Positions 39,243 to 43,520 of a DNA stretch of 64,000 nt are shown here, one piece after another. Source of the DNA: Janthinobacterium sp. LM6. GTDB taxonomy: Bacteria > Pseudomonadota > Gammaproteobacteria > Burkholderiales > Burkholderiaceae_D. Both the position numbers and the translations under genes were made by a program. Position 1 is the stretch's first letter; each line of letters begins with the position of its first letter. Location: contig NZ_CP019510.1 of the NCBI RefSeq assembly GCF_002002885.1, positions 4,340,001 to 4,404,000 of the forward strand. Reading direction: 5' to 3'. The notes beneath the pieces are model-generated. The model saw only the letters and a program-made list of their open reading frames with translations. It had not been told where the DNA came from and did not search any database.

Positions 39243-39274
39243 GCAAAACGGCTTGCCATGCTAGGCAAGCCGTT
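39243..39274 (-). terminator. terminator of the copper operon
   Basis: 11-bp stem (AACGGCTTGCC / GGCAAGCCGTT), six-base loop, TTTT on the minus strand. It lies 26 bases beyond the multicopper oxidase stop. Confidence 0.85.
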
Positions 39275-39299: not shown

Positions 39300-40685
39300 T
39301 TAATGACCCGTGTGTGCGCCAGGTTTACGCACCGTCATCTCGACGCCACCTTTCACCACGGGCTTGCCCGCACCCTGGCCGCGCACGGGCTCCGGCAAGG
39401 CGCCCGTCCATTCATACGCCACGCTGCCGGCCGGGTGCTTGTACCAGCCCGGATCGCGGTAGTCGCCCGGCTTCTGATCCTTGCGCACCTTGACCGTGGT
39501 AAACATGCCGCCCATGCCGATGGCGCCGAAGGGGCCGTCGCCCGCCATCATCGGCAAGGTATTGTCGGGGATCGGCATCTGCATCTCGCCCATGTCGGCC
39601 ATGCCCCGCTCGCCCATCACCATGTAGCCAGGCACCAATTGATTGATCTTCGCCGCCACGCCCTGGTGGTCGACGCCGATCATGGTCGGCACGTCGTGCC
39701 CCATGGCATTCATCGTGTGGTGCGACTTGTGGCAGTGGAAGGCCCAGTCGCCAAGGTCCGTGGCCGTGAATTCCACGGCGCGCATCTGTCCCACGGCCAC
39801 GTCCGTCGTCACTTCGGGCCAGCGCGACTCGGGGCGCGTCCAGCCGCCATCCGTGCCCGTCACCTCGAATTCATGGCCATGCATGTGGATCGGGTGGTTC
39901 GTCATGGTCAGATTGCCCACGCGCACGCGCACCTTGTCGCCCTGGCGCACGACCATGGGGTCGATGCCGGGGAAGACGCGGCTGTTGAAGGTGAACAGAT
40001 TGAAATCCGTCATGGTCATGATCTTCGGCGTGTAGCTGCCGGGGTCGATGTCATAGTTGCTCAACAGGAAGACGAAGTCGCGGTCCACCTTCATGAAATT
40101 CGGGTCTTTCGGGTGCGTCACCCAGAAACCCATCATGCCCATGGCCATCTGCGTCATTTCATCCGCATGCGGGTGGTACATAAAGGTGCCGGGCCGCTTG
40201 GCGACAAATTCATAGACGAAAGTCTTGCCAGGGGGAATGCCCGGCTGGGTCAGGCCCGTGACGCCATCCATGCCGTTGGGCAAGCGCTGGCCATGCCAGT
40301 GCACGCTCGTGTGTTCAGGCAACTTGTTGGTGACAAAGATGCGCACGCGGTCGCCCTCCACCACTTCGATGGTGGGACCGGGCGACTGGCCGTTGTAGCC
40401 CCACAGGTTGGCCATCATGCCGGGCGCCAGTTCGCGCACGACGGGTTCGGCCACCAGGTGGAATTCCTTGACGTTGTTGTTCATGCGCCAAGGCAAGGAC
40501 CAGCCATTCAGGGTGACGACGGGGTTGTACGGACGCCCGTTCGGCGGCGGTGGCGGCGCCTTCGTCTCCGCGCCGGCCATGCTGACGGCTTCCGGCAGCG
40601 ACGCCGCGCCGACACGGCTCACGGCTGCCGCACTCAGGGCGACCGCGCCCGCGTTCATGAAAAAGTTTCTACGTGTAATCATCAT
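39300..40685 (-). CDS. multicopper oxidase, copper resistance
   Basis: 461 aa exported by the Tat system (TRRNFFMNAGAVALSAAA near the N-terminus). Trinuclear-site motifs are in order: HWHG (His129, His131), HPH (171, 173), HPIHMHGHE (about 263-271), and HCHKSHHTM (about 314-322) with the type-1 copper Cys. It is shorter than CopA of Pseudomonas and lacks its Met-rich domain, but a Met-rich stretch (GMADMGEMQMPIPDNTLPMM) follows the catalytic core. Probably oxidises Cu(I) to Cu(II) in the periplasm. Last gene of a four-gene operon; its ATG overlaps the preceding stop (TAATG). Confidence 0.93.
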   Translation of the reverse strand: MMITRRNFFMNAGAVALSAAAVSRVGAASLPEAVSMAGAETKAPPPPPNGRPYNPVVTLNGWSLPWRMNNNVKEFHLVAEPVVRELAPGMMANLWGYNGQSPGPTIEVVEGDRVRIFVTNKLPEHTSVHWHGQRLPNGMDGVTGLTQPGIPPGKTFVYEFVAKRPGTFMYHPHADEMTQMAMGMMGFWVTHPKDPNFMKVDRDFVFLLSNYDIDPGSYTPKIMTMTDFNLFTFNSRVFPGIDPMVVRQGDKVRVRVGNLTMTNHPIHMHGHEFEVTGTDGGWTRPESRWPEVTTDVAVGQMRAVEFTATDLGDWAFHCHKSHHTMNAMGHDVPTMIGVDHQGVAAKINQLVPGYMVMGERGMADMGEMQMPIPDNTLPMMAGDGPFGAIGMGGMFTTVKVRKDQKPGDYRDPGWYKHPAGSVAYEWTGALPEPVRGQGAGKPVVKGGVEMTVRKPGAHTGH

Positions 40686-42043
40686 TATTCCTTGTTGGCA
40701 GGACCGCTGCCATTGATGGCGCCTTGCAGTTCGGTTTGCGCGATCCAGAAATCGCGCTGGGTCTCGATGGCGCTGTTGACGCTGGCAACTTGCTCGCGCG
40801 CATCGGCCAGCAGTTCGAAGACGCTGGCCAGCATGCCGTTGTAACGCAGCAATACTTCATGCGAAATCGTCTTGCGCAGCGGCACGACTTCATCGCGGTA
40901 GTGGCGCGCCAGATCGTAGGCCGTGCGGTAGCTGGAATACGCCTCGCGCACTTCCGAGCGGGCCCGTACTGCCGTGCCCGCCGTGCGCTGCAGCGACTGT
41001 TCATATAGCGCTTGCGCCTTCGCGTTGCGCGCCGAACCCCAGTCGAACAGGGGCAATTCAAGCGACACTTCATAGCCGTTTTCGCGCGGCGCCTCGCTCG
41101 TGCTCTTGTTGCTGTAACCCACGTCGAGCACGTTGATGAAACCCGTCACCTTGGACAGGCCCAGCGCGCTGGCCGTGGCATGCGCGTCGAGTTTCGCTCT
41201 TTGCACGTCGAGGCGCTGCTCCATCGCTTGCGCCTCGATATTGCCCGCCTCGGCTGGCTTGGCCGGCAAGTCGGGCAAGCGCGACGGCAGAGTGAACGCC
41301 GTCTGCTTGCCCCACAGGCCCAGCAAGCGCGTCAGGTGCTCGCGCGTCACCAATGCCTGGTGGCGCGCGCGGGCCAGGTCGCCGACGGCGTCCGCGTAAA
41401 ACACTTGCTGGCGCGCCTGGTCGAGGCGGCTCCAGTTGCCCGCCCGCTGCAAGCGCGTGGCCAGCTCGGCGCCCGCCTCGGCCGACAGCAGCGCCCGCTG
41501 CATGAACTGTTCCGTCTGCACGGCGGCCACCGCATTGAAGTAGGCGCGGCGCGTATCCGACGCCAGCTGCACGGCGCTGCCGGCGGCTTGCAGCTTGGCT
41601 TGCTCGAAACGGCCGCGTTCGATGTTCACGCGCAGCGGCATGGTCAGCAAGCCGGCCAGGTCGAAGCTGACGCCGCGGTCGATTTCATTGCCGTGACTGC
41701 CATGCGAACGGCCGAACGACAGGCCGGGATTGCGCAAGCGCCCCGCCTGCACCAGGTCCGCCTCGGACGCGCCCAGTTCGGCCAGCGCCACCTTCATGCC
41801 GTGGTTGTTCATCAGGGCAATGCGCACGGCGCTGTCGGCATCCAGGGGCTGGGCCAGCAGGGCGGCCAGTTTTTCCTCGCCGCCCTGGTCGGCCAGCGCG
41901 GCGGGCGCGCCCGTGCGGGCATCGGCCAGCGCGGACACGGCCTGCATGCCGCCATCGGCGCTGAAGCTGGCGCAGCCGCTGAGCAGCAAGGCGGCCGCCA
42001 GCGCCAGCGGCGTGAGGCAAGTTGATTTGGTGAAACGTGGCAT
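40685..42043 (-). CDS. TolC-family outer-membrane efflux lipoprotein of the copper operon
   Basis: 452 aa from the ATG at 42043 (AAGGAC upstream), lipobox LLLSGC. Two outer-membrane-efflux repeats with long helices (about 80-250 and 260-440). Distant from the RND channel at 2999; this type (TIGR-like CusC/CopB-role lipoproteins) travels with copper oxidases. No RND pump or adaptor is encoded here, so it must borrow one or act with the oxidase alone. Confidence 0.88.
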   Translation of the reverse strand: MPRFTKSTCLTPLALAAALLLSGCASFSADGGMQAVSALADARTGAPAALADQGGEEKLAALLAQPLDADSAVRIALMNNHGMKVALAELGASEADLVQAGRLRNPGLSFGRSHGSHGNEIDRGVSFDLAGLLTMPLRVNIERGRFEQAKLQAAGSAVQLASDTRRAYFNAVAAVQTEQFMQRALLSAEAGAELATRLQRAGNWSRLDQARQQVFYADAVGDLARARHQALVTREHLTRLLGLWGKQTAFTLPSRLPDLPAKPAEAGNIEAQAMEQRLDVQRAKLDAHATASALGLSKVTGFINVLDVGYSNKSTSEAPRENGYEVSLELPLFDWGSARNAKAQALYEQSLQRTAGTAVRARSEVREAYSSYRTAYDLARHYRDEVVPLRKTISHEVLLRYNGMLASVFELLADAREQVASVNSAIETQRDFWIAQTELQGAINGSGPANKE

Positions 42044-42044
42044 G

Positions 42045-42386
42045 TCAGTGTCCTTCGTGCTGATGTTGCGGGGCGGGCTTGGCATCGGACTTGGGGCCGG
42101 GCGTCTCCATCGGCATCGTGTGGCCCTTCATTGCATGGCCTTCCATCTTGTGGCCTTCCATCTTCATCATGCCCATGTGGCCGCCGGCCTTGCCGACTTT
42201 ATCGTTGACGGCGCGCCAGGCCTGGTCGGGCGTGGCGTCATCCTCGGCGGCGGGACGGTAGCCGGCGAAGGCGGAACGATAGGTGGTGGCCGGCACGGAG
42301 GCTTGCGCCTCTTGCGGGGCGGACGGGGATTGCGCTGCGGCGGCCAGCGGCAGCACAGCCAGCGCAAAGCTGAACAGGTATTTCAT
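42045..42386 (-). CDS. periplasmic Met/His-rich copper-binding protein
   Basis: 113 aa, signal peptide MKYLFSFALAVLPLAAAA. The C-terminal half is packed with Met and His (GGHMGMMKMEGHKMEGHAMKG..., ending HQHEGH), the composition of CopC/PcoE-like periplasmic copper sponges. AAGGAATACC precedes the ATG at 42386. One base separates its stop from the TolC-like gene. Function by composition and operon context only. Confidence 0.85.
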   Translation of the reverse strand: MKYLFSFALAVLPLAAAAQSPSAPQEAQASVPATTYRSAFAGYRPAAEDDATPDQAWRAVNDKVGKAGGHMGMMKMEGHKMEGHAMKGHTMPMETPGPKSDAKPAPQHQHEGH

Positions 42387-42513
42387 GGTATTCCTTGAAG
42401 AACAGGGTATGGCGCGGCGGGCGCGCGACTGGAACGCTGGCGCGGCCGGAACAAGGTGCACGATACAAGCTGCAGGGACGTGCGACGGCGGCACCGCCAG
42501 GTTCAACGGGCGG

Positions 42514-42942
42514 TCAGGCGGAGCGCGTGCTTCTCGGGGGACGTTCTGGGCCAGGCGGGATATGCCCGGCGAACAGGGAATCGGGCGCCAGCGCCGGAGG
42601 GGGCGCGCGCAGGGTCAAGGCATGCAGGGGCGGCATGCCGGGCGGCGCCGTGGCACCCACGGTGCAAGCGCCATGGTTGCTGCAATCGTGGCCATGGTGG
42701 CCGGCGCCGCCATCGTCCATGGCCATTTTTAGCGGCTGGTCCTGCATGTGGGACATGCCGGCCATGTCGCCCATGTCGTGGCACTGGGGCGCCTCCATCG
42801 CTACGGCGGTGACGGTGACCGCTGCCGCCAGCTCGTCCACGCAGCAGCTGCGCATGGCCGACGCGAAGCCCTGCATGGGCAGCGTGACGGCCAGCAGCCA
42901 GAGCAGCGAGCGGGCGAGAAAGCGGGAAAAGGCACGGTTCAT
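42514..42942 (-). CDS. small exported copper-associated protein, first gene of the copper operon
   Basis: 142 aa with an N-terminal hydrophobic signal (SLLWLLAVTLPMQGFASA), a Cys pair (MRSCCVDE), and a His/Met/Cys-rich centre (APQCHDMGDMAGMSHMQDQ; GHHGHDCSNHGAC). The tail is Pro-rich. It probably binds copper in or at the periplasmic membrane. There is no ribosome site: the ATG coincides with the predicted start of transcription from the CueR-type promoter, so it may be translated leaderless. 127 non-coding bases separate it from the next gene. Confidence 0.78.
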   Translation of the reverse strand: MNRAFSRFLARSLLWLLAVTLPMQGFASAMRSCCVDELAAAVTVTAVAMEAPQCHDMGDMAGMSHMQDQPLKMAMDDGGAGHHGHDCSNHGACTVGATAPPGMPPLHALTLRAPPPALAPDSLFAGHIPPGPERPPRSTRSA

Positions 42943-42948
42943 GGCATG

Positions 42949-42979
42949 ACTATAAACCTTCCCACATGAGGAAGGTCAA
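42949..42979 (-). promoter_or_regulatory. CueR/MerR-type copper promoter
   Basis: Minus strand: -35 TTGACC (42979-42974), a 19-base spacer and -10 TATAGT (42954-42949). The spacer holds the perfect dyad ACCTTCC-N7-GGAAGGT (42956-42976). The overlong spacer with this dyad is the hallmark of CueR-controlled copper promoters. No cueR gene is in the window. Confidence 0.93.
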
Positions 42980-42983
42980 GCCC

Positions 42984-43520
42984 CTATTTGCGCCCGCCGC
43001 CGTGCGTCAGCCAGATGACGTAGGCGCCGTAGTAGCCCTGCCCCTCCAATATGACCTGGCCCCCGACAAAATGGATTTTCTCCACTTTATTGACGGTAAA
43101 ATACGCGCGGCCATCGGCCGCCGCCACGTCACCCAAGCAACGGGCGCGGGGCCGGCAGTAGCCGCTGGCGCGCCCGATGGCCCACATCAGGTCGCCGATC
43201 ATGAAGTCGTACATCATTTCGGCCAGCAGCGGCCGGTGACCCGCCAGCATGGCCGTGATGTCGGGGTAGCCGGCCTGCATGAGCTCGGGCAAGTCGCTCT
43301 CCTCGTACTGCAGATCGTCTTCACGGCAATCCTGCACGAAACTGTTGAAGGGTTCGTCGAGCAGTCCCGCCAGCGCCGCTTCCGGCACGCTCAGGCGGAA
43401 CGGGTGCAGCGGCAGCACGCTGTGCTGGCCGTAATTGAGTTCGCGGCAGTCGAGGAAGGCCAGCGGGTGCGGCTGGCCACCGACCTCGCAGCGGATGCCG
43501 GATGCTTGCCCCTCCGCCAT
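42984..43520 (-). CDS. hypothetical protein of the cytochrome bd operon
   Basis: 178 aa from the ATG at 43520, overlapping the DUF2474 gene stop (TGATG). Soluble, acidic, no signal peptide; several Cys (LDCRELNYG; VQDCREDD; YCRPRARCLGD) and a beta-rich C-terminus (GQVILEGQGYYGAYVIWL). I do not recognise it. Its tight coupling to cydA-cydB-DUF2474 suggests a role in oxidase assembly or expression. Confidence 0.72.
   Translation of the reverse strand: MAEGQASGIRCEVGGQPHPLAFLDCRELNYGQHSVLPLHPFRLSVPEAALAGLLDEPFNSFVQDCREDDLQYEESDLPELMQAGYPDITAMLAGHRPLLAEMMYDFMIGDLMWAIGRASGYCRPRARCLGDVAAADGRAYFTVNKVEKIHFVGGQVILEGQGYYGAYVIWLTHGGGRK

Follow-up and report, generated by a model that had tools for sequence, protein, structure and literature searches.

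Predicted leaderless mRNA from a CueR-type promoter set against the start codon of a CopL/CutF/CzcI-like leader gene in Janthinobacterium sp. LM6

In a 64,000-nt stretch of Janthinobacterium sp. LM6 (the window; NZ_CP019510.1, assembly GCF_002002885.1, positions 4,340,001–4,404,000 of the forward strand), we found a CueR promoter whose −10 element ends six bases before the ATG of a small open reading frame, gene 1. On sequence comparison, it is likely that this promoter gives a leaderless gene 1 mRNA, that gene 1 is a probable copper-sensing leader and that the leaderless start is a property of its family. Many relatives of gene 1 reach the same start by way of an extended −10 element, which suggests that it belongs to the gene family and not to the CueR promoter as such. 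The leaderless reading of gene 1 is well supported but unproven. A preliminary description of this DNA had predicted a leaderless mRNA here and called leaderless translation rare in Betaproteobacteria, which is too strong, as 4.67% of primary start sites in Cupriavidus metallidurans are leaderless according to excerpts of PMC7563307. The importance lies less in rarity than in a family of leader ORFs whose leaderless start seems to persist while promoters change. It is the identity of gene 1 as a CopL/CutF/CzcI-like leader ORF, missed by the preliminary description, that makes the arrangement interesting.

The CueR-type promoter and the start codon

Read directly, the minus strand from 42979 to 42949 is a textbook CueR promoter, with TTGACC and TATAGT on either side of a 19-bp spacer (Table 1). 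The half-sites of the dyad, ACCTTCC (42976–42970) and GGAAGGT (42962–42956), are perfect; its A and two Cs fall within the −35 element, and the remainder lies in the spacer. This reading agrees with the −35, 19-base spacer, perfect dyad and −10 of the preliminary description, whose interval of 42940–42980 correctly spans the promoter and the start codon. The expected number of matches to the promoter pattern in the window, estimated from shuffles, was 0.00 at up to three mismatches, and the window dyad is the only copy without a mismatch in the 6.29-Mb genome; the promoter match is therefore no chance occurrence.

The ATG of gene 1 (42942–42940, minus strand) lies six bases past the −10 element, and its A is the seventh base downstream of the −10 end at 42949, with a C before it. 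Transcription preferably starts at a purine about seven bases past the −10, within a pyrimidine–purine initiator. No Shine–Dalgarno sequence is possible on a transcript that starts at 42942, and for such a transcript the earlier statement that no ribosome site precedes the ATG holds; were the transcript longer, GGAAGG from the dyad would sit about 14 nt before the ATG. A tiny upstream reading frame opening at the out-of-frame ATG at 42947 (ATG CCA TGA) was considered and rejected, most orthologues having CCTG, TGTG, CGTG, GGCG or the like at that place.

Table 1 Features of the gene 1 operon and its promoter (window coordinates)
Feature	Position	Strand	Basis
−35 element TTGACC	42974..42979	−	Sequence; invariant in 25 close orthologues
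Spacer of 19 nt between −35 and −10	42973–42955	−	Sequence
CueR operator dyad ACCTTCC-N7-GGAAGGT	42956..42976	−	Conserved in 25 close orthologues except centre
−10 element TATAGT	42949..42954	−	Sequence; CueR −10 spacing in the genus
Six bases CATGCC from −10 to ATG	42943..42948	−	Positions 1 and 2 variable; C at −1 conserved
Predicted transcription start (A of ATG)	42942	−	Predicted by distance from −10 and by initiator
Gene 1, 142-aa exported Cys/His/Met-rich leader ORF, C-terminal ERPPR	42514..42942	−	CopL_fam 27 bits; alignment
Intergenic gene 1–gene 2, short conserved stem just past gene 1 stop	42387..42513	−	Weak covariation
Gene 2 Shine–Dalgarno AAGGA	42392..42396	−	Sequence
Gene 2, small exported Met/His-rich protein	42045..42386	−	Sequence
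Gene 3, outer-membrane efflux protein; Shine–Dalgarno AAGGA 42055–42051	40685..42043	−	PF02321, E 2.4e-25
Gene 4, multicopper oxidase, twin-arginine-like start; Shine–Dalgarno AAGGA 40693–40689	39300..40685	−	PF07732, E 1.5e-39
Intrinsic-terminator-like hairpin and T run past the operon	39245..39272	−	By eye; not listed by pattern scan

The genome also encodes CueR (185.2 bits against the NCBIfam cut-off of 147.4), the outcome of a search that the preliminary description had proposed, and the window promoter has the 19–20-bp separation of −35 and −10 and the CueR dyad that define the CueR type. We infer that CueR activates the promoter in a copper-dependent manner. Near cueR, CueR-like boxes with one and three mismatches precede a small protein, which by eye looks like a copper chaperone, and the copA–cueR genes; together with CueR itself, these boxes support the earlier assignment of the promoter to the CueR type. 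The box of the chaperone-like protein, at G000:C1:4971071, is separated from its ATG by 32 nt holding an AAGGAG, and the box before copA–cueR stands about 35 nt from its ATG; in this within-genome control, the window's is the only one of three CueR-like boxes with a 6-nt gap. As candidates for further CueR targets, ten of the 22 places in the genome where the dyad occurs at up to two mismatches were fetched, and only the window's site was promoter-like.

Gene 1 and its operon

The protein encoded by gene 1 looks like the CopL/CutF/CzcI leader proteins. It scored 27 bits (E 5.7e-06) against CopL_fam (NF033807), below the curated cut-off of 40 bits, and had no match to the CzcI family (NF045614); four tested relatives match CopL_fam or the CzcI family, likewise under the cut-offs. 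No Pfam family matched gene 1 at E 0.01, hence DUF2946 did not either, and none of five relatives matched DUF2946 at E 1. When 44 relatives are aligned, a hydrophobic stretch at the N terminus, cysteines and histidines, and the consensus CSACAACC are seen, and the C-terminal RPP is invariant. Gene 1 has CSNHGAC, without the strict CXXC of the CruR/DUF2946 type, where the relatives' consensus reads CSACAAC, and it ends in ERPPRSTRSA; the RAPP of the CruR type occurs as a RAPPP about 30 residues from its end that is not conserved among relatives. CutF-like proteins are defined, in excerpts of PMC9973294, by fewer than 150 aa, an N-terminal signal peptide, PP in the last 15 residues and a same-strand gene within 1000 nt. 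This definition takes in gene 1, which has 142 aa, an N terminus (MNRAFSRFLARSLLWLLAVTLPMQGFASA) judged by eye to be a signal peptide, PP near its end and gene 2 127 nt on.

The same genome holds two further members of the family. One (L187; G000:C1:3852060-3852440) has extended −10 elements at 6 and 8 bases from its ATG and is followed by genes encoding a DUF411 protein and a receptor of the TonB-dependent type, and the other lies near a heavy-metal-type RND pump. A scan of named genomes with the gene 1 protein alone as query gave 14 loci, all of them in Janthinobacterium. Among plasmids, gene 1 found one weak match, in Janthinobacterium sp. J1-1, and a relative of gene 1 used as query found no homologue.

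Downstream, an AAGGA precedes the ATG of each of genes 2, 3 and 4, in line with the good ribosome sites claimed earlier for the downstream genes. Neither Pfam nor NCBIfam gave a match for gene 2 at E 0.01. Proteins like it follow gene 1 at other loci, and at several of ten distant loci that were read, a gene similar to the window's gene 2 or gene 3 comes next. Gene 4 scored 164 bits against TIGR01480, below that family's cut-off. In the intergenic stretch, three of 32 predicted pairs are changed on both sides. We do not claim a CutF-like stem hiding the gene 2 Shine–Dalgarno sequence, the intergenic RNA being no more stable than its shuffles (z 0.20). Upstream of the second gene, many relatives (L035, L063, L068, L071, L076, L088, L104 and others) share a sequence resembling ATCGATTTCGAGG. 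This sequence takes in that gene's ribosome site and may belong to a regulatory RNA element. On the other, upstream side of the promoter are cydA and cydB, also on the minus strand (window 46087–43657), followed by a further, unassigned reading frame ending at 42984, the stop of which ends four bases before the CueR −35.

Distance from −10 to start codon among relatives

Gene 1 was present in 39 of 40 searched Janthinobacterium genomes (L055 and L066 are one locus and were counted once). The CueR −10 ends six bases before the ATG in 29 of the 39 and seven bases before it in one (L052), and nine are without a CueR −10 at the start. Among 25 close orthologues with the 6-base gap, which were hand-picked without L052, making the lack of indels among them a matter of choice, the promoter is almost invariant except for the centre of the dyad. 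Near the start, variation is among the highest at the two bases that directly follow the −10, where 10 and 13 of the 25 differ from the majority. Proteins 46–63% identical also keep the gap (L034, L032, L056 and L031). The prediction of a leaderless mRNA in the preliminary description, with its start placed from the −10 spacing, gains support from this 6-base spacing across the genus and from the more distant relatives described below.

Elsewhere in the genus, the CueR −10 stands farther off, at 40 nt in L033 and L057, 28 nt in L039 and L060, and 26 nt in L062. L036 (G190) has a gap of 44 nt, yet an in-frame ATG lies 5 nt past its CueR −10; starting there would extend gene 1 by 13 residues, which looks like retention of the leaderless start. 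L063 has a CueR −10 at 48 and a second −10 at 6, and two loci have a −10 without a CueR box, at 7 (L061) and at 10 (L058, read by hand). A tree of 66 proteins places its seven proteins with CueR at the start in one clade with L033, L036 and L057 (SH-aLRT 99). Because 25 of its 63 inner branches are open, we claim no direction for the change of promoter.

The transcript could instead start 1–3 nt before the ATG and carry a tiny leader, as bacterial transcription initiates with a scatter of a few bases and the spacing in relatives ranges from 6 to 8. We consider this unlikely: the A of the ATG is a purine, lies at the preferred distance from the −10 and follows a pyrimidine, and that pyrimidine, the C at −1, is found in 24 of the 25 close orthologues.

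It is distinctly unlikely that gene 1 is read from a leadered mRNA running in from cydAB, with the GGAAGG of the dyad as its ribosome site. The upstream genes, the last ending at 42984, are on the same strand, and the GGAAGG stretch pairs with the anti-Shine–Dalgarno sequence at −7.1 kcal/mol, but its distance of about 14 nt from the ATG is long for a Shine–Dalgarno sequence and the motif is already accounted for as a CueR half-site. Moreover, L031, which has no GGAAGG, still has the 6-nt gap, and relatives without GGAAGG retain the −10 spacing.

To return to a transcript starting at the ATG, we looked for the same spacing across the bacterial family. The search matched 154 of 294 genomes, and the 117 loci examined were the better-scoring among the matches listed together with genus extras, a set that under-samples weaker relatives of gene 1. 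Starts were picked by their position relative to the signal peptide, independently of any −10; 114 loci were given a start (L058, L135 and L136 were dropped for want of one), 113 had 100 nt upstream and 60 were left under 70% identity. A TANNNT ends 6–7 nt before the ATG in 36 of these 60 loci, and 6–8 nt before it in 40. At a typical other position, one or two loci have it, and distant CueR promoters add a minor second peak at 50–52. In the 40 loci the element is mostly an extended −10 (TGnTAnAcT), with T and G at −3 and −2 in 28 and 29 of the 40 and A as the fourth base in 35; no −35 motif was found upstream of it when the 40 were aligned.

The proximal −10 occurs alone in 28 of the 60 loci, and nine combine it with a CueR-like promoter located about 50 bases upstream; 12 have the distant CueR-like promoter only, three have the CueR −10 at the start and eight have neither. 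In twelve loci (L035, L059, L063, L071, L072, L076, L088, L090, L102, L104, L125 and L126), the distant CueR-like −10 is found 48–52 bases before the ATG and, if there is a proximal −10, about 44 bases away from it; in the remaining loci with a distant CueR promoter, the distance is 26 to 70 bases. Outside the family, loci from the same taxonomic order had a −10 at 6–7 nt in 25 of 58 cases and at 6–8 nt in 31. This set came from 70 loci examined among the matches listed, the weakest left out, which included 10 loci from the family itself and the cueR stretch; of the 59 outside the family, one had no usable start. In a phylum sample of CopL loci scoring over the cut-off, tallied by hand with one such locus left out and L258 unreadable, five of 14 scored loci had a −10 at 6–8 nt, three of the five being near-identical. 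No −10 lies at 6–8 nt in 20 of the 60 family loci and 27 of the 58 outside, several of which also have no Shine–Dalgarno sequence. The best reading of these sequences is that the leaderless start is conserved across promoter types among the relatives of gene 1, with a third to half of them not fitting.

Such a −10 was far less common at other genes. Controls were drawn from 400 kb of the same genome and the window, counting any ATG in the first quarter of a reading frame. With frames taken longest first, 7 of 338 had a −10 at 6–7 nt (Fisher 4e-28 against the family). This control may include false reading frames and a set filtered by GC at codon positions was therefore added, in which the background was higher and the enrichment still large (16 of 279; Fisher 2e-20), so that 2–6% of control frames had the element at 6–7 nt. 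At 6–8 nt, the filtered set gave 18 of 279, and 4 of 279 for the ATG with the best Shine–Dalgarno sequence. In paired loci, a −10 at 6–8 nt precedes gene 1 in 39 of 59 and the next gene, as called, in 0 of 59, and median Shine–Dalgarno energies (duplex estimates) are 0.1 kcal/mol for gene 1 and −5.9 kcal/mol for the next gene. The starts of the next genes were chosen partly by their Shine–Dalgarno sequences, a choice that is biased towards low energies and could mask −10 elements; several of these starts are doubtful, the window's included. Some relatives of gene 1 start with GTG, a poorer leaderless start than ATG in E. coli. These data suggest that start calls in the gene 1 family deserve checking.

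Mapped starts in Cupriavidus metallidurans provided an outside check. Transcription of czcI2 begins 'directly at the 5' end of czcI2', making it leaderless (excerpts of PMC10127602), and czcI2 is named among the leaderless mRNAs in a start-site study of the same strain (excerpts of PMC7563307); starts of czcI are mapped 31, 53, 97 and 284 nt upstream (PMC9045368). Consistent with this, czcI2 has a TATAAT 8 nt before its ATG, and czcI has no −10 at 6–8 nt before its ATG, which is directly abutted by an AAGGA too close to make a good Shine–Dalgarno sequence. The locus taken as czcI2 is the only CzcI-family match on the chromid record, and a divergent reading frame lies 134 nt from it, the distance reported for zntA in excerpts of PMC10127602. 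The −10 spacing rule separates leaderless czcI2 from leadered czcI, with one case of each. CzcI and CzcI2 are counted as CutF-like proteins without the proline motif in excerpts of PMC9973294.

It might be argued that the −10-like element of the relatives is an RNA or coding signal rather than a promoter, in which case its position at 6–8 nt would be uninformative about leaderlessness. In nine of the 60 family loci, there is also a CueR-like promoter some 50 nt upstream, and the element could act there on the longer RNA. Its match to an extended −10, its standing alone in 28 of the 60 loci, its replacement by the CueR −10 in most Janthinobacterium and its presence at czcI2, the one relative with a mapped leaderless start, make this distinctly improbable. 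Translation from Met codon 23 or 30 of gene 1 with its own ribosome site, the ATG at 42942 being no start, is highly improbable, since most of the apparent signal peptide would then be lost, relatives 27–61% identical align with gene 1 at the N-terminal Met and hydrophobic stretch, and variation in codons 2–33 is weighted to third positions (15, 18 and 38; codons 2–12 alone, at 2, 17 and 18, are not clear).

Proposed mechanism and comparison with known systems

Under the leaderless reading, copper-loaded CueR would activate the 19-bp-spacer promoter, the transcript would begin at, or a base or two from, the A of the gene 1 ATG and gene 1 would be translated from a leaderless mRNA. Judging from the features of the family, gene 1 probably senses copper as a nascent exported chain and would gate the downstream Met/His-rich protein, outer-membrane channel and multicopper oxidase, with genes 2–4 presumably translated from their ordinary ribosome sites. 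One possible use of the arrangement is that the first ribosome could load once the 5' end of the RNA emerges. A tentative and rather doubtful extension is that leaderlessness has been selected in leader ORFs of the CopL/CutF/CzcI type: a 5'-terminal AUG would allow early loading of the lead ribosome and tight coupling for nascent-chain metal sensing, and the start would have been kept through promoter changes, the CueR promoter having moved onto the start codon in Janthinobacterium. If gene 1 is a nascent-chain copper sensor, CueR at the promoter and the nascent chain on the ribosome would be joined at one point. The recurrence of the predicted leaderless start across bacterial families and promoter types makes the purpose of leaderless starts testable, and Janthinobacterium is an easily grown environmental genus.

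Like CueR-regulated copper promoters of the E. coli copA type, the window's has a −35, a long spacer, a dyad and a −10. A −35, a 19–20-bp spacer, a dyad and a −10 are described for MerR-family promoters in excerpts of PMC9909328. The window's promoter differs in that its −10 ends 6 nt before the start codon and leaves no leader. CutF and CruR are reported to be nascent-chain copper sensors that gate the next genes (excerpts of PMC9973294 and PMC9426467). Like gene 1, CutF of the Rhodobacter capsulatus cutFOG operon is a short exported protein that carries metal-binding residues and has PP near its C terminus, encoded by the first gene before a multicopper oxidase (excerpts of PMC9973294), whereas the window has two genes between gene 1 and the oxidase gene and no strong Shine–Dalgarno-hiding stem was found in it. 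CruR of Bordetella pertussis is likewise an exported Cys-containing leader ORF with a C-terminal proline motif that heads a copper operon, but its start was mapped, in a recoded strain, 45 nt before the potential start codon, whereas the window transcript is predicted to be leaderless (excerpts of PMC9426467). CruR also differs from gene 1 in being a DUF2946 protein, in copper shutting off the downstream genes and in being followed by a TonB-dependent transporter gene (same excerpts). CopL proteins have weak similarity to gene 1 over most of its length, with gene 1 under the family's cut-off. The word 'leaderless' does not occur in the CutF paper (PMC9973294), and a limited literature search, in part of excerpts, found no paper linking leaderlessness to the CopL/CutF/CzcI-type family beyond czcI2. 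A good −10 also stands six or seven bases ahead of an ATG in four other reading frames of the LM6 genome (labels L139, L140 and L151), which may be leaderless too.
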